Source: Microcaldota archaeon | GTDB taxonomy: Archaea > Micrarchaeota > Micrarchaeia > Micrarchaeales > Micrarchaeaceae | Length of the DNA stretch: 37,508 nucleotides | Direction: 5' to 3' | Assembly (NCBI GenBank): GCA_027317945.1 | Contig: DAHVQB010000008.1 | Location: 1-37,508, forward strand | Shown here: piece after piece, positions 4,363 to 37,508 of the stretch | Numbering within the stretch: the first letter of the stretch is position 1 | Layout of the letters: every line of letters starts with the position of its first letter | Made by a program: the position numbers and the translations under genes | The notes under the pieces: generated by a model | Databases searched by the model: none | Seen by the model: the letters and a program-made list of their open reading frames with translations, nothing else | What the model was told of the DNA's origin: nothing

Positions 4363-4430
4363 CTAAGAAGACAGCGCTTGATGCGGCTCTTGCAGGGCGA
4401 ATTCCCAAAAAGTGTCATTTAGTAACATTT

Positions 4431-4439
4431 TTATATATC
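4431..4439 (+). promoter_or_regulatory. TATA box for the surface cassette
   Basis: TTATATATC centred about 32 bp before the ATG at 4467. It is the only obvious promoter ahead of the two-gene surface cassette, and implies a leader of only a few bases. Confidence 0.5.
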
Positions 4440-4466
4440 TGAGATAATTATCATATTAGAGCGCCA

Positions 4467-6563
4467 ATGGTGATGCATACGATCATAGGTGGCAAGAGTA
4501 GCTTAGGCAGTTCCTACACCGGGAAAAGGTTCAGCGCGCAGGCCGTGACTGAGTACCTAGTCACATATAGCTGGGTCCTTGCCATAGTCGCAGTCATACT
4601 TGCAGCCCTTTTCGAGCTCGGTGTGTTCAGCACCCCTAACGCCCCGGGCGCATGCATAGCAACCGTAGGCTACATATGCTCAAATCCAGTTTATACCGGG
4701 AATGGGATAACGTTCACTTTTGGGCAGGTGGCCGGCCAGAACCAGTATTATTACAACGACCACATATTTGTAGCCACTGAAGGGCAACTGATAAACGGCT
4801 CGACAAACGTGCCAGTAGGCTTCAACGGTGGTGCGCAAAAAGTCGCAAGCGTACTAACCCCGGGCCAGACTGTCGATGTCAACTTTACTAATTTCGCGTC
4901 AGGCAACATACCGCAGAACCCTTCTGTAGGCACGTCGTTGTATGGTTATGTATGGCTTTCATACTGCACAACGCCTTGCAGCGGCACCACTTATACGCAT
5001 TTGGCCAAGGTAGCAACCATAACCGCGCAGGCCACGAAGAGCGGCACGGTCAGCCCGTATGGGAATCTATGCTCGGTCAGCGGCAATACGCTTACCTGCG
5101 ACCTGAACAACCAGACCATAACATGCAGCCTTAATTCCAATTCGCTTGTAACCGGCTGCAACGTCCCGCCCACTACCACCACCACAGCGACTACTACAAT
5201 TTACAACGGGCCGAGCACCAAGATTTATGTGAACTCCACAGGCCAGTCAGGCATACCTGTAACGCTAGATAAGACCCTGTACGTCACTAACACTACTGCT
5301 GATTTGCCATATCCTTCCAACTCAGTTCTATCGCTTAACTTCACTAAAACAGTATATGGCTACTTCGGTGGTTCCAGGGCGAATTACACCAACTCGACAG
5401 GCACAACGTGCACCATCAATAGCAATGGAACTGTGACCATAACCCCGGACTGCACCATAAAGCTCAATTACGCGCAGCAGTATGAATTCGAGATTCTGGA
5501 GCAGGTAGGATCGAGCGTACCGCAGAACACCACTGCTTATGGAGCCACATCCCTTCCAAGCGGCAAGAACATAGAATGGTTCGCGCCGCACACGAATGTC
5601 TCTTTTTCGGTGGGCGCCAACCCAGGATATGAATTCACGGGCTTCACCGTAGGATACGGCAATGGTTATACTGGAGCAGACTACCAGAACCCTTACAAAT
5701 ATTCTAACAGCGGATCATTCTCTGAAAGCAACTGTTACCCTGGTTGTACTTTCCAACAGTCATACTCGCCTTCGCAGGCCGTTTACGCCCCAGGTGCGTA
5801 TACCACAGAAGGTTGCGGAGGCTGCGGAGGCGCTGAAGCCTTATACTCAGTTTCCTATGTGCCTGCCCATGTCAACATGACGGGTGCCATAGTCGAGGTA
5901 GCGCAGTTCAGCCAGACAAGCGATTACGTGCCTGCCGAGTCAACATCTATTTCGGTATCTTATAATTATCAGAACTGCACTGATAACTATACTTCAAGCG
6001 TAAGTAGCAGCACCGGCTACTACAACGAGCAGGATCGTTATTACTTGTATTGCAACACCATAGGCAGTGGCACCGAATCAATTCCGGTAACAGTGTCATC
6101 GCCCGTAGCGAACTGGTCCAGCGGATTTGGAAGCGTCAGAATATACTACTACGGCAGCAATGAATGTTATTACTATAATAATTATTATGGCAGCGGCTAT
6201 GGCGGATGGAGCTTGTCTAACTGCTACAGCGCGAGCAATGTTTCGCTTGACAGCGTTTACCCGTTCAGCTTGAATTCCACGGAAAGCGCGGCTTATTCTT
6301 CTATAAACAGCCAGATAAACAATTATATAGCGAACAATGCACCCACTGGTCCTGCACCTAATTTTCACGGAGGGCATCAGACATGGTATTCGTATTCCTT
6401 CACTTATCTTGGCGTCACTACTACGCATTATTTCTCGATGCCAAGCAGTTCGTCGTATAGCTACTATGACTATGTCAGCAACAGCGGCAGCACCAGCGGA
6501 AGCTCGACTACCCAGATGGGCGCTACTTACTATGCAGGTTATATTTACGGCCTTGGTTCGTAA
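4467..6563 (+). CDS. large pilin-like surface protein with class III signal
   Basis: A 698-residue protein with a type IV pilin-like N-terminus and a very long exterior. The leader ends SA|QAVTEYLV (predicted Gln+1 at residue 25, Glu+5 at 29), followed by a hydrophobic helix (about 30-54). Residues 60-170 repeat the C-x6-C-x-N-P-x-Y pattern of the partial pilin at 1-207. A Thr-rich linker (TTTTTATTT, about residue 235) separates this module from a roughly 440-residue Tyr/Ser/Asn/Gly-rich region with many N-x-S/T sequons, several Cys pairs and a Cys-Gly-rich loop (EGCGGCGG). Classical pilins are 100-200 residues, so this is a pilin anchor fused to an adhesin-like domain. It is followed 10 bp later by a second surface gene. 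Exterior role is inferred. Confidence 0.88.
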   Translation: MVMHTIIGGKSSLGSSYTGKRFSAQAVTEYLVTYSWVLAIVAVILAALFELGVFSTPNAPGACIATVGYICSNPVYTGNGITFTFGQVAGQNQYYYNDHIFVATEGQLINGSTNVPVGFNGGAQKVASVLTPGQTVDVNFTNFASGNIPQNPSVGTSLYGYVWLSYCTTPCSGTTYTHLAKVATITAQATKSGTVSPYGNLCSVSGNTLTCDLNNQTITCSLNSNSLVTGCNVPPTTTTTATTTIYNGPSTKIYVNSTGQSGIPVTLDKTLYVTNTTADLPYPSNSVLSLNFTKTVYGYFGGSRANYTNSTGTTCTINSNGTVTITPDCTIKLNYAQQYEFEILEQVGSSVPQNTTAYGATSLPSGKNIEWFAPHTNVSFSVGANPGYEFTGFTVGYGNGYTGADYQNPYKYSNSGSFSESNCYPGCTFQQSYSPSQAVYAPGAYTTEGCGGCGGAEALYSVSYVPAHVNMTGAIVEVAQFSQTSDYVPAESTSISVSYNYQNCTDNYTSSVSSSTGYYNEQDRYYLYCNTIGSGTESIPVTVSSPVANWSSGFGSVRIYYYGSNECYYYNNYYGSGYGGWSLSNCYSASNVSLDSVYPFSLNSTESAAYSSINSQINNYIANNAPTGPAPNFHGGHQTWYSYSFTYLGVTTTHYFSMPSSSSYSYYDYVSNSGSTSGSSTTQMGATYYAGYIYGLGS

Positions 6564-6573
6564 GGTGTTTTAG

Positions 6574-7443
6574 ATGATATTTCGGCAGCATAGGCTACTT
6601 GCATTATTCTGTATGATCGCTGCGGCGCAGCTCTTTGCATGCGGATATGCCGCCAATAATACCCAGTATTCCGTTGCGGTTGCAACAAATGCATCGCAAT
6701 ATTCCGGGATAAAACAGGTATTGGTTACGGGCACAATATCGCCCACGCCGGCGCCATACTCACTGGTAAATTTTTCATTGATATCGCCGCAGGAAGCCAT
6801 AATTTACACGTTTCAGGCACAGACATTGGTCAACGGTTCATTCAGGGCGGCATTCTCAACAGGCACCTCGCCCAAATGGATGAATGGCACGTATGTATTG
6901 ACTGCGACATACATTGATGTATCTTCAAACACTACTTTTGGATGGGACGGCACCGCAACGGCAAACACTACATTCCCTAAGTACGCCATAACTGGGCCGA
7001 CCACGGCCAAGGGCGCTTACAACGGTACCGAAACAATCGCAATTAGAGGATCGGTAACCCCCGTATCGGGCATAGAAGCCAGCAGCACAGTTGTAGTCAG
7101 CGTAGCCGCGCCCGGGGGATCCCCTACGGACGTTTACACAGTTCCGGTAACCAGTGCTGGTTTATTCAACATTAGCTTCGCTGGAGACAATAATCCCAAG
7201 TGGGTGAATGGCACTTATACGGTCACTGCCAGGTACTATAATGTAACTAGCAATACGACATTCGAGTGGAAGCAGGTGCCGCAACAGACCAATATAATAA
7301 ACAACACAATTGTGGTTCCTTCGTCCACCGCCCAGAGCTCATCGCTGCTAAAGTATGTGGGCGCGGTAGCCATAATAGTTGTAGGGATAGCGATAGTTGT
7401 ATTTTTGAGAAGAAGGTTCTCTAGAACAACTTCATACGCATAG
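6574..7443 (+). CDS. membrane-anchored surface protein with two tandem repeats
   Basis: A 289-residue exported protein. Residues 1-26 form a Sec signal peptide (LLALFCMIAAAQLFACGYA). Two beta-rich repeats follow, recognisable by PKWMNGTYVLTA...SSNTTFGW (99-124) and PKWVNGTYTVTA...TSNTTFEW (207-232). A C-terminal membrane helix (about 257-278) ends in RRRFSR, so the protein is anchored with its repeats outside. There are many N-glycosylation sequons. The start is set by a clear AAGGTG ribosome site overlapping the end of the large pilin gene, 10 bp upstream, indicating an operon and a likely joint role at the cell surface. Confidence 0.85.
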   Translation: MIFRQHRLLALFCMIAAAQLFACGYAANNTQYSVAVATNASQYSGIKQVLVTGTISPTPAPYSLVNFSLISPQEAIIYTFQAQTLVNGSFRAAFSTGTSPKWMNGTYVLTATYIDVSSNTTFGWDGTATANTTFPKYAITGPTTAKGAYNGTETIAIRGSVTPVSGIEASSTVVVSVAAPGGSPTDVYTVPVTSAGLFNISFAGDNNPKWVNGTYTVTARYYNVTSNTTFEWKQVPQQTNIINNTIVVPSSTAQSSSLLKYVGAVAIIVVGIAIVVFLRRRFSRTTSYA

Positions 7444-22601: not shown

Positions 22602-23474
22602 ATGTTGATGGACGTAACGGCATTTAGGACTGTGAGCGTCATCGTCATAGCACTAGTATACATGCTATTCGACGTCTTCAACAAGAGGTCCATACCAAAT
22701 GAAATCGTATATGCATCGGTTCTTTACGCTCTTTTCATTGCAGTTGTTTATTTCAATCCCGCCACTGTGACGAATCTGGCAATAGCCGCCGTAGTATTTA
22801 TCGCTGGCTATGCGATTTACAGGATAGGGCAGATAGGCGCGGCGGATGTCGCAGAATTCATAGTGATATCGCTACTCATACCCCTACAGCCTGTGGAGTA
22901 TGGCTTTGGGCCCGCAGTGCAGCTGCCTTTCATAATATCTGTTCTGATAGATGCCGGCATAGCGGCGCTCATACTGTTCCCGCTGTATTACATACCCAAG
23001 GGGTATGGCAGAGTCAAGGATCCCGTCTCAACCATACGCAGGAGGGACTTTTACAACGCTGTAATAATAGGGCTTACTTATGCTTTCTTTATGGTTTTCC
23101 TGGTGTTGGTGCTCAACATAGGGATGGGCAGGTTCCTACTGTTGGCATTGATAATGCTGTCTTCCATATCAATAGTGCTATTCCAAAGGCTTATGACGCA
23201 AGCCATGGTAAAGTACGTGCCTGCCACGGGATTCGAGAGCGGGGATATGATAGCTCTTAATCTGATGGACCATGATACCTTGACAAGGACCAAGACACGG
23301 GTTAAAAGCTTCGAAAGGCTCATTGACGATAAAATGATATCGGAGATGAGGAGGAAGGGGATAAAGACGCGCTTCCCTGTCTATAAGGAGGGAATGCCGT
23401 TCGCAGTTGCGATATTCGTAGGTACAATTATTTCCATATCCATAGGCAACTTACTGTTATTCATACTATTGTGA
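22602..23474 (+). CDS. A24-family prepilin peptidase (FlaK/EppA-like)
   Basis: A 290-residue polytopic membrane protein. The two catalytic aspartates of the A24 aspartyl proteases are visible: Asp24 in LFDVFNKRSIPNE and Asp82 in QIGAADVAEF, where the usual GxGD is GAAD. About seven hydrophobic helices are spaced as in archaeal preflagellin/prepilin peptidases, with a longer cytoplasmic stretch (about 205-265, FERLIDDKMISEMRRKGIK) and a final helix. It would cut class III or archaellin-like leaders, so the pilins at 1-207 and 4467 are candidate substrates. ATGs at 22602 and 22608 are both possible starts. Confidence 0.83.
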   Translation: MLMDVTAFRTVSVIVIALVYMLFDVFNKRSIPNEIVYASVLYALFIAVVYFNPATVTNLAIAAVVFIAGYAIYRIGQIGAADVAEFIVISLLIPLQPVEYGFGPAVQLPFIISVLIDAGIAALILFPLYYIPKGYGRVKDPVSTIRRRDFYNAVIIGLTYAFFMVFLVLVLNIGMGRFLLLALIMLSSISIVLFQRLMTQAMVKYVPATGFESGDMIALNLMDHDTLTRTKTRVKSFERLIDDKMISEMRRKGIKTRFPVYKEGMPFAVAIFVGTIISISIGNLLLFILL

Positions 23475-35206: not shown

Positions 35207-37508
35207 CTACAGCCGGTCTAACAGGGCTTTTATGTGCTTTAGTATTATTCGCTCCTCCTTTTTCAGCAATGGATGGGAGTTCTCCTTCTTGCTTTTTGCC
35301 CAGAGCACGACGCCTATGTCATCATGCAACTTCAGTATGCTGCCCTGCGTGCTTTCCGGATCAACAAGGAATATGCGGACCTTCTTTTTCCTGGCGAATT
35401 TAAGTGCGGCATTTATTTTGGAATCCTCGAGTGCGGAATCAGAAATTGCGACAACCCCTTCTGCGTTATTCCTCGATATGGCGTATCTCACTTTGCCCAC
35501 ACCAGAAAGTGACCATCCGTTTGACAAGCCCCACAAGAAGCGGCCGACCACATCCGCCTTCCTTCTAGTATGCAAGATAACCAGTGAAGGCGGCGTCAAG
35601 GCCACGGCCAGTATTATGAGTATTAGGTAGTCTTCTATTGCGTCAAGCAGCCTTGACGAATCTGAGAATATCAGCCCAAGAACAGAAACGCCTACATTTT
35701 GAGGGAGTATTTTGTATGAGTAGCTGATTGAATTCGCGGTATAGTTCGCGTTTCCTGCAGTGCTGAATACATAGGTATAGTTTCCGACTGTCTGTTGAGT
35801 CGAACTTATTTGATAGAAAGTGCTGCCCACGGAGCCATTGTTAACTGACAGTGTAGCGTTAAGCTGATTGCCACCTGTTAGGATTTCGGCTTTGGTCACA
35901 CATGCGGTGCCGTTATAGGGATAATTACTGCACTCTTTTATAAACTCAAGCTTGGGCACCAGCTTGGCTCTAGATACGTATATTGTAGAATAGCTGCCTG
36001 ACACTTCATCCTTTCCTATTATAGTATAATTGCCTGGCAGCAGCCTTGTGATGTTGTACTCTGCGATGCCAATGCCGGTTGACAGAATCGTATTTCCATG
36101 GATTAGTTCGACTGTATTGTTGTGGTTTGAGCTAATTGCTGTTATGGTGCCGTTCTGTGCAGTAAGAGCGATTGTAGTATTCGCTGCAACGGGAACAGTA
36201 ATGGCAGGTTCACAAACTTCCAAGGAAATCGTATGCAGGGCAGGCACATAAGTGATGTTGGTCAGCCTCAATATAAAGTTAGAATCATTTATACGACCTA
36301 TTGTAACATTGGCATTCAGATACGTGTTAATCGTGGTATTGCCGTTTATTATCTCTGTTGAGTAATTTGTGCTTATTACTGACTGATAGATGAAGAAAGA
36401 TCGCGAAAGACCAGGGAAGTATATAGTAACGTGATTGAATGTGGCAAAGTCGCTCACTGTATAACATAGTGGACCGCTTGCGGCAACCGTAGGGCCGCTA
36501 GGACCGCTTGATCCTTGGCTCGTCGTCGAAGACGTGGTGCTGCCGCCGCCTCCTCCCCCTCCGCCGCCTGATGATGGGGCTAATGGAGGTATTACTTTGA
36601 CTTTTGTGGTTGACATGTTGAATGTATAGGGCGGCGATGTACCTGAATCCGTAATCGCAGTTACCAAAGTGATAGAACCTCCAGTATTGAAAGTAAGGTC
36701 AAAATTGTGTGAGCCGCCCCCTACTGGTATTGTGGCGGACGCTATAACTGTTGGATCAAGCTGGTATATGTCGACCGTGAATGGGCCTATGCCGCTGTTA
36801 GCACCTATAGATACGTTTAGTGAGACTTTTGAGCCTTGGGCTACGGTTATGTTTACTGTTGAATTCTTTGTTGCATTGATACTGCTTGTTTCGTTTATGA
36901 CGTCCATTGACGCAGTGAAACTGTAGACGCGCACATGGTTGGAAGGCTGTGAAATTGCGCTTTCTGGGAAAGAGGCCCCGTCCGTCACATTTAATTCAAA
37001 AATGTAGTTGCCTGTTGTGGTTAAGGAGTTTGTAAGGAACTGACAGAAGATGGTGTTGCCGGAGTTTTGGTTGTAGCCGCTAGGAGTTTGGCACAATACG
37101 GAATTAGCCGCAGTGAAGCTATCTGTATTTGGCGCTTCGACGAGCCAATTATAACTGAATGGGGGTGACCCGGTAGAGGGCATTGTGCCTATTATTGTGG
37201 AGAGAGCGCCTTGATCAATTGTTGTGTTGTCAATAGTTGGCGCGCTAGGTGGAGTAAGCTTTGAGTTAACTTTTATGGTGTTTGAGTTTAGTGATGATAG
37301 AGTCTCAGACGTGGACGCAGAATCAACTATCTGAAGCTTCAGATTATATGAGTCTCCTGCAGTAAGGGTGTTGCCGGATATGCTGCATGTCACGGTGTTG
37401 CCTGAGTTTTGGTTGGAGCCGGTGTTAGCGGTACATTGTGTGGCAGTCGAATACGTGCCGCCGTTGGCGGATACCAACCACGTGTACGAATACGGAGGTG
37501 TGCCAGTC
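35207..37508 (-). CDS. large Ig-repeat surface protein with cytoplasmic domain (partial, N-terminus missing)
   Basis: At least 767 residues; it begins outside the right edge. The exterior has tandem Ig/PKD-like repeats: GTPPYSYTWLVSANGGTY and TGSPPFSYNWLVEAPNTD are equivalent positions about 100 residues apart, each followed by Q-N-S-G-N-T and a Cys pair. A Gly9/Ser/Thr linker (about 36520-36570) divides these from another beta-rich, N-sequon-rich region. A transmembrane helix (YLILIILAVALTPPSLVIL) comes about 130 residues before the end. The remaining tail is a cytoplasmic alpha/beta-like domain (EGVVAISDSALEDSKINAAL, KKKVRIFLVDPE), not recognised. An adhesin or surface-sensor role is inferred. 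Confidence 0.85.
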   Translation of the reverse strand, partial: TGTPPYSYTWLVSANGGTYSTATQCTANTGSNQNSGNTVTCSISGNTLTAGDSYNLKLQIVDSASTSETLSSLNSNTIKVNSKLTPPSAPTIDNTTIDQGALSTIIGTMPSTGSPPFSYNWLVEAPNTDSFTAANSVLCQTPSGYNQNSGNTIFCQFLTNSLTTTGNYIFELNVTDGASFPESAISQPSNHVRVYSFTASMDVINETSSINATKNSTVNITVAQGSKVSLNVSIGANSGIGPFTVDIYQLDPTVIASATIPVGGGSHNFDLTFNTGGSITLVTAITDSGTSPPYTFNMSTTKVKVIPPLAPSSGGGGGGGGGSTTSSTTSQGSSGPSGPTVAASGPLCYTVSDFATFNHVTIYFPGLSRSFFIYQSVISTNYSTEIINGNTTINTYLNANVTIGRINDSNFILRLTNITYVPALHTISLEVCEPAITVPVAANTTIALTAQNGTITAISSNHNNTVELIHGNTILSTGIGIAEYNITRLLPGNYTIIGKDEVSGSYSTIYVSRAKLVPKLEFIKECSNYPYNGTACVTKAEILTGGNQLNATLSVNNGSVGSTFYQISSTQQTVGNYTYVFSTAGNANYTANSISYSYKILPQNVGVSVLGLIFSDSSRLLDAIEDYLILIILAVALTPPSLVILHTRRKADVVGRFLWGLSNGWSLSGVGKVRYAISRNNAEGVVAISDSALEDSKINAALKFARKKKVRIFLVDPESTQGSILKLHDDIGVVLWAKSKKENSHPLLKKEERIILKHIKALLDRL

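Follow-up and report, generated by a model that had tools for sequence, protein, structure and literature searches.

A candidate modular type IV pilin and an exported membrane companion form a conserved two-gene unit in a genus of Micrarchaeota

The window analysed here is a 37,508-nucleotide stretch of a Micrarchaeota genome (contig C16; genome of 678,297 bases, 72% complete) from a habitat that, judging by sample names and by related cultures described in papers, is presumably acid mine drainage. It carries two adjacent genes, P0001 and P0002. From its sequence, the most fitting reading of P0001 is an archaeal type IV pilin of modular build, of the class III type with a large grafted exterior, and P0002 encodes an exported membrane protein, termed here the companion. 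Three independent genomes, all from one genus, carry the pair at the same locus. The recurrence of this arrangement with different exteriors in the genus suggests a modular cell-surface display kit.

An earlier note made from the letters of the window had described P0001 as a 698-residue protein combining a class III leader and helix with a large Tyr/Asn/Ser-rich, Cys-paired exterior, and each part of that description was borne out (Table 1). The basic leader ends in GKRFSA and is followed by QAVTEYLVTYSW; cleavage is predicted before Gln25, which would place Glu29 at position +5 ahead of a hydrophobic helix, as in archaeal type IV pilins. Glu and Tyr were invariant in nine aligned pilin domains of the genus (P0001 and eight others), and homology to pilins of the lineage extended over the domain beyond the helix. 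P0001 matched 24 places in its own genome, itself included (E ≤ 10), a profile built from nine pilin sequences matched 26, and matches to P0001 were obtained in all 60 genomes searched. A Thr-rich linker precedes the exterior, and the paralogues carry Thr/Ser-rich linkers in the equivalent position.

The exterior (residues 248-698, 451 amino acids) consists of 16.0% Ser, 12.2% Tyr, 10.6% Thr and 8.2% Asn. Eight of its 10 Cys residues (18 in the whole protein) were invariant across three orthologues, and Cys567 and Cys586 were both absent in two relatives, a joint loss as expected of a disulphide pair. The exterior was 69-70% identical in two other species, indicating that P0001 and P0002 are real genes; in the same comparison, P0002 gave 38-45% and the nearby genes 69% (RNase H), 67% (AMMECR1) and 78-85% (topoisomerase I). 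A profile search of 301 genomes of the phylum found the exterior in four, all of one genus. The three exterior loci in the genome_contigs collection all came from Micrarchaeota metagenome-assembled genomes (YP3.bin112, MAS5.bin21 and FK3.bin83), and the exterior in the window matched the YP3.bin112 record at 100%. A viral origin was rejected, as a search of the viral_contigs collection with the exterior returned no relatives. When whole P0001 was compared with Pfam and NCBIfam, no accepted domain was assigned to the exterior; Pfam likewise detected no PilY1 beta-propeller, DUF2341 or substrate-binding domain in the protein. The cut segment 341-399 matched Flg_new_2 in all three orthologues below threshold (E 0.009-0.033; 14.6-16.4 bits against a cut-off of 23.6), and a 24-column tail matched the end of InlB-type repeats in one pairwise hhalign comparison (E 3e-4, probability 40%). 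Residues 354-482 may thus tentatively be taken as a split, degenerate InlB-type repeat. The extra module of P0001 is therefore represented by sub-threshold InlB-type matches only, whereas its paralogues carry modules above the cut-offs.

P0002, which starts 10 bp past the stop codon of P0001, agreed equally well with the earlier description of a companion with a signal, a double repeat and a membrane anchor. It has an N-terminal signal, two related repeats, a C-terminal membrane helix that also appeared in the AlphaFold2 (AF2) model, and an Arg-rich tail. The two repeats were 31% identical to each other in the window protein and 45% and 37% in two relatives. In the AF2 model (mean predicted local distance difference test score, pLDDT, of 72.9) they folded as beta-sandwiches; Pfam MG2 matched the second below its cut-off (E 0.00018), and Foldseek with the model retrieved complement/alpha-2-macroglobulin and other immunoglobulin (Ig)-like proteins. 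On the strength of the model, the Foldseek matches and the internal repeat, a fold of tandem MG2/Ig-like beta-sandwich domains is predicted with moderate confidence. A P0002 profile gave strong full-length matches solely in the same four of 301 genomes as the exterior, and partial matches in 11 further genomes, the best with E 3.3e-17 (genome G030) and most near 1e-3. G030, of another genus, holds a frame of 564 amino acids (L083, 469-2148) with a P0002-type beta-sandwich domain; the N-terminal part of this protein is rich in Pro, and it contains several membrane helices. A VPXXXP-CTERM sorting signal in P0002 was considered and rejected, the score being 14.9 bits against a cut-off of 30 and the motif being lost in orthologues.

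Five genomes represented the genus, namely that of the window and G001 to G004. In G002, G003 and G004 the pair was flanked by the same neighbours, with RNase H on one side and a tRNA methyltransferase and topoisomerase on the other. G003 (60% complete) showed no mismatch to the window over 12,075 bp, indicating the same population; it was rejected as an independent occurrence, and the pair thus counts three independent occurrences, not four. The presence of both genes in the same four of the 301 genomes, at one locus in three independent ones, upholds the conserved pairing that the earlier note had called for. The gap between the genes measured 9-11 bp in all three species, leaving no room for a second promoter, which points to co-transcription from a single promoter. 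A candidate TATA-type element, AGTAACATTTTTATAT (4421-4436), lies upstream of P0001 and is followed by TATCATATTAG (4449-4459), and both were kept upstream of the G002 orthologue; the G004 contig starts inside the P0001 orthologue, and the comparison covers G002. Of the earlier proposal of one transcription unit behind one TATA box, the kept element and the short gap stand, and the shared transcript is what they lead one to expect. TATA-like words upstream of other long pilins (G000, G002, G004) occurred at varied distances in some and were absent in others, and no common promoter pattern is proposed. A bacterial-type scan, uninformative for an archaeon, found no terminator after position 7443.

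The pilin family of the genus is large, with 25-43 profile matches in each of the five genomes. Counts for the window's own genome are minimal, because several of its contigs end inside pilin genes; repeated pilin domains break the assembly. In the genus census, 126 of 159 matches were listed and 88, including those of G003, were counted as complete domains. Among these listed matches, 69 of the 88 complete pilin domains lay in frames of at least 400 amino acids (median 558) and 16 in frames of at least 698. Seven further genomes from the family and order gave 112 matches, of which the 24 best-scoring were listed and 18 were complete; 3 of these 18 lay in frames of at least 400 amino acids (median 194.5), a length figure skewed in favour of the strongest matches. 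A domain among the 18, G034:C1:256375-256812 from another genus, falls within an open frame of 5127 amino acids. The long exterior is thus a feature of the genus. The earlier statement that typical pilins are far shorter is accurate for the other genera and fails for P0001's own, and the idea of P0001 as a giant, singular pilin was rejected, since frames of 400-1000 amino acids are the norm there. Exteriors of paralogues contained domains known from surface display that scored above Pfam cut-offs: LamG at 74.7 bits, DUF2341 at 45.0 bits and, in triplicate, InlB-type repeats (Flg_new_2) at 64.8 bits. By eye, ankyrin-like repeat proteins adjoin pilin clusters in G003 (L043, 3122-3583 and 4552-4920) and G001 (L071, 9001-9999).

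Machinery for processing and assembly is also present. Besides the prepilin peptidase in the window, an operon on contig C4 encodes a T2SSE ATPase (PF00437, 113.2 bits) and two T2SSF proteins (PF00482), giving the genome a peptidase, an ATPase and TadC-type proteins as in type IV pilus systems. T2SSF pairs were found in four of the five genus genomes, the exception being the 60% complete G003.

Pairing with a companion was also assessed across the family. The set comprised most long pilins (at least 300 amino acids) of G001, G002 and G004 and those of the window's own genome, with downstream DNA; G003 was excluded. Neighbours within 120 bp on the same strand were classified with our own simple gene caller and hydropathy rule. 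The background, drawn from the window and 20 stretches of 20 kb each, contained 370 genes, 179 with a co-directional non-pilin neighbour and 15 with an exported one; the pilin loci were chosen for holding pilins. Among the 55 long pilins with sufficient sequence downstream, the next gene encoded an exported, anchored non-pilin protein in 15 cases and was another co-directional gene in three. Exported and anchored products therefore made up 15/18 co-directional non-pilin neighbours after long pilins versus 15/179 in the background (p 8.6e-12), or 13/16 when two orthologous pairs were counted once (p 2.6e-10). Against exported background genes (3/20 co-directional), p was 2.9e-5, and 9.1e-5 with orthologous pairs counted once. 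Some companions are homologous to each other, and not all are independent.

These companions belong to several families. Besides the P0002 family, there is a second that extends from a signal to a transmembrane segment; its members in G000 and G004 (41% identical) follow two giant pilins arranged in tandem. A third family, shared by G001 and G004 (27-34%), is N-terminally anchored. Further companions are a fourth pair, with 31% identity, and two proteins resembling beta-propellers. Between L109 in G001 and L124 in G004, identity was 58-60% for the exteriors (over 335-354 residues) and 31% for the companions; the pilin domains were 51% identical to each other and 75% and 85% identical to paralogues of their own genomes. 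In the tandem units, the exteriors (59-65%) and companion (41%) likewise matched between G000 and G004, and the first tandem pilin domain in G004 was 57% identical to own-genome paralogues versus 49% to its counterpart. At L109, L111, L123, L124 and L128, pilin domains of several paralogues in the same genome were more alike than those of exterior-matched counterparts in another genome, suggesting gene conversion.

Table 1 Features of the P0001/P0002 unit and the associated peptidase gene in the window
Feature	Position	Strand	Basis
TATA-type promoter element, 4421-4436 (putative), and TATCATATTAG, 4449-4459	4421..4459	+	Both parts kept upstream of the G002 orthologue; function predicted
P0001, candidate modular pilin, 698 amino acids	4467..6563	+	Open reading frame; orthologues 70% identical; same locus in G002, G003, G004
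P0001 class III leader, residues 1-24	4467..4538	+	Sequence; aligned to eight further pilin domains from the genus
P0001 pilin domain, residues 25-190: helix (~25-50) and Cys-containing domain	4539..5036	+	Homology, alignment
P0001 Thr-rich linker, residues 235-245	5169..5201	+	Sequence
P0001 exterior, residues 246-698	5202..6560	+	4/301 phylum genomes, single genus
Putative InlB B-repeat, divergent and interrupted by a ~60-residue insertion, residues 354-482	5526..5912	+	Sub-threshold Flg_new_2
P0002, exported membrane companion, 289 amino acids	6574..7443	+	Open reading frame; orthologues 35-45% identical
P0002 beta-sandwich domain 1, residues 30-124 (predicted)	6661..6945	+	AF2, block pLDDT 80-92 over most of 31-120
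P0002 beta-sandwich domain 2, residues 138-233, MG2-like (predicted)	6985..7272	+	Pfam, AF2, Foldseek
P0002 C-terminal membrane helix and Arg-rich tail	7342..7443	+	Model helix 257-287; hydropathy
Prepilin peptidase, likely processing enzyme	22602..23474	+	PF01478 Peptidase_A24, 30.8 bits, cut-off 26.5

Two further surface genes lie at the ends of the window on the reverse strand. Positions 1-285 hold the start of another pilin gene, truncated by the contig end. At 35207-37507, an open frame runs off the contig end and encodes a surface protein of at least 766 amino acids. Beta-type repeats in this protein are accompanied by a Gly/Ser linker, a membrane helix and a cytoplasmic tail; Pfam gave nothing above cut-off for it.

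In the mechanism we propose, the prepilin peptidase, as expected of its family, would cut the P0001 leader, and the T2SSE ATPase with the paired T2SSF proteins would draw the N-terminal helix out of the membrane and build it into a pilus or a short pseudopilus. The exterior, some 450 residues braced by disulphides, would be pointed outward by the Thr-rich linker and form the functional part of the filament or of the cell surface. P0002, presumably made from the same transcript given the short gap and single promoter, would sit in the membrane with its two Ig/MG2-like domains outside, and would most likely bind, steady or position the P0001 exterior before or after assembly; an anchor is only one possible role for it, because the pilin already brings a helix of its own for the membrane or filament. 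The functional unit would then be the exterior with its companion, and the pilin domain a display platform common to dozens of paralogues with other exteriors. Taken as a whole, this account of a modular pilin that is processed, assembled and displayed with a cognate membrane companion seems to us somewhat favoured by the evidence. The likeliest putative use is adhesion, including to an archaeal host, and host contact is plausible for this lineage. The roles of filament tip, adhesin and host-contact device suggested in the earlier note are hypotheses rather than observations, and its interpretation is thus supported in part. A more far-reaching version is offered as a tentative proposal, rather doubtful in its entirety: the pilin domain of the genus would be an interchangeable platform, partly homogenised within each genome and bearing dozens of exteriors, some inherited with a cognate companion as a two-gene cassette, with P0001/P0002 the most widely kept one on a reconfigurable surface by which a cell with a tiny genome would grip its archaeal host.

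Several observations weigh against the proposed account. No Pfam or NCBIfam pilin model matched the leader region of P0001, searches of PDB sequences with the pilin profile (to E ≤ 10) and with the exterior gave no meaningful relative, and an AF2 model from a three-sequence alignment had a mean pLDDT of 28.8 and offered no usable structure, speaking neither for nor against the earlier interpretation. Neither gene of the pair is present in G001, where no exterior match was found anywhere in the genome, making the pair dispensable in the genus. (The topoisomerase-methyltransferase locus of G001 instead carries an oppositely oriented open reading frame, L070 4616-5806, for a different exported protein of 396 amino acids whose membrane helix is C-terminal.) Pairing is not general either: the next gene stood apart or on the other strand for 26 of the 55 long pilins, was another pilin for eight, and was not called for three. 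When all long pilins were set against the exported-gene control, the difference was weak (15/55 vs 3/34, p 0.03), with p 0.056 once orthologous pairs were counted once and 0.13-0.5 at gaps of 30-60 bp. P0001 itself showed no homogenisation, its pilin domain being 74% and its exterior 69% identical, so that homogenisation applies to some units only. Finally, P0002 was 35-45% identical between species versus 70% for P0001, and this faster divergence is not what tight contact over the whole surface would predict.

That difference in rate would suit a mere operon of two unrelated surface genes in which P0002 makes no contact with P0001, as would the MG2/Ig-like domain in the unrelated 564-residue frame of another genus. 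Long pilins are, however, repeatedly associated with exported companions of several families, and in three units exterior and companion match across genomes; we therefore consider a chance operon unlikely, yet worth serious attention. Equally deserving of attention, although improbable in our judgement, is that P0001 and the long paralogues stay unpolymerised, the leader and helix being a mere membrane anchor and the proteins, P0002 included, forming a diverse surface coat. The 25-43 members per genome are many for minor pilins, most long pilins stand alone and away from the C4 assembly operon, and archaeal class III leaders are also known on non-filament proteins. Such a coat would leave unexplained why the whole pilin domain is conserved, beyond leader and helix, and why a reduced genome retains the genes for the peptidase, the ATPase and T2SSF.

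An S-layer-like set was weighed as well, with P0001 as the lattice protein and P0002 as the membrane stalk, after the SlaA/SlaB arrangement known in Sulfolobales. The pair resembles it in that a gene for a large exterior is coupled with one for a C-terminally anchored protein bearing beta-sandwich repeats, and Micrarchaeum harzensis is reported to have an S-layer whose mode of anchoring is unknown (PMC8975820). P0001, however, bears a class III leader and its own helix in place of the cleaved Sec signal of such a lattice protein, and, unlike a basic envelope component, the pair is absent from G001 and the exterior from genomes outside the genus (4/301). An S-layer role thus appears very improbable.

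The proposed modular pilin with a membrane companion was compared with known systems. For the question of how DPANN archaea recognise their hosts and hold on to them, a defined set of large pilins with named exteriors and companions provides concrete, expressible candidates. The Sulfolobus bindosome uses large class III substrate-binding proteins. It is tied to archaeal type IV pilus (T4P)-type machinery; no substrate-binding domain was detected in P0001. The PilY1/PilC tip adhesin is a large effector shown on type IV pili, but it is a non-pilin, and P0001 has its own pilin domain. Predicted adhesins encoded in archaeal T4P loci include S-layer-like proteins anchored at the C-terminus as well as large proteins that are secreted or of class III, some of which have DUF2341 (Makarova et al. 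2016, PMC4858521). Unlike these candidates within T4P operons, P0001/P0002 and most paralogues are scattered, and P0001 lacks DUF2341. In the ARMAN-2-related Micrarchaeota Mia14, T4P loci occur together with a single FlaK-like peptidase and an expanded set of LamG proteins, some of them T4P-linked; the surface-gene section of its description mentions neither modular pilins, nor pilin domains with long exteriors, nor pairs of a pilin and a companion (PMC5498576). Imaging has revealed filaments running between a Micrarchaeon and its host, although that study attributes the filament to the host (PMC8975820).

A literature search of limited depth found no paper on archaeal modular pilins. The closest model is provided by PilB and PilC of Streptococcus sanguinis, modular pilins with a bulky grafted module for which display on filaments is proposed, PilC being stabilised by its partner PilA (PMC8179133, PMC9934059). 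P0001 shares with them the class III leader, the pilin module and the bulky exterior. The S. sanguinis proteins are bacterial and carry the IPR012902 motif, unlike P0001, whose exterior has no accepted domain, which has dozens of paralogues per genome, and whose partner is a membrane protein rather than a pilin. By analogy with the stabilising partner in S. sanguinis, P0002 would stabilise or position P0001 from the membrane. The recurring companion genes add interest to this variant of the modular pilin. If exterior-companion cassettes on a shared pilin platform prove true, they would extend the modular-pilin idea from bacteria to archaea and add to it a non-pilin partner.

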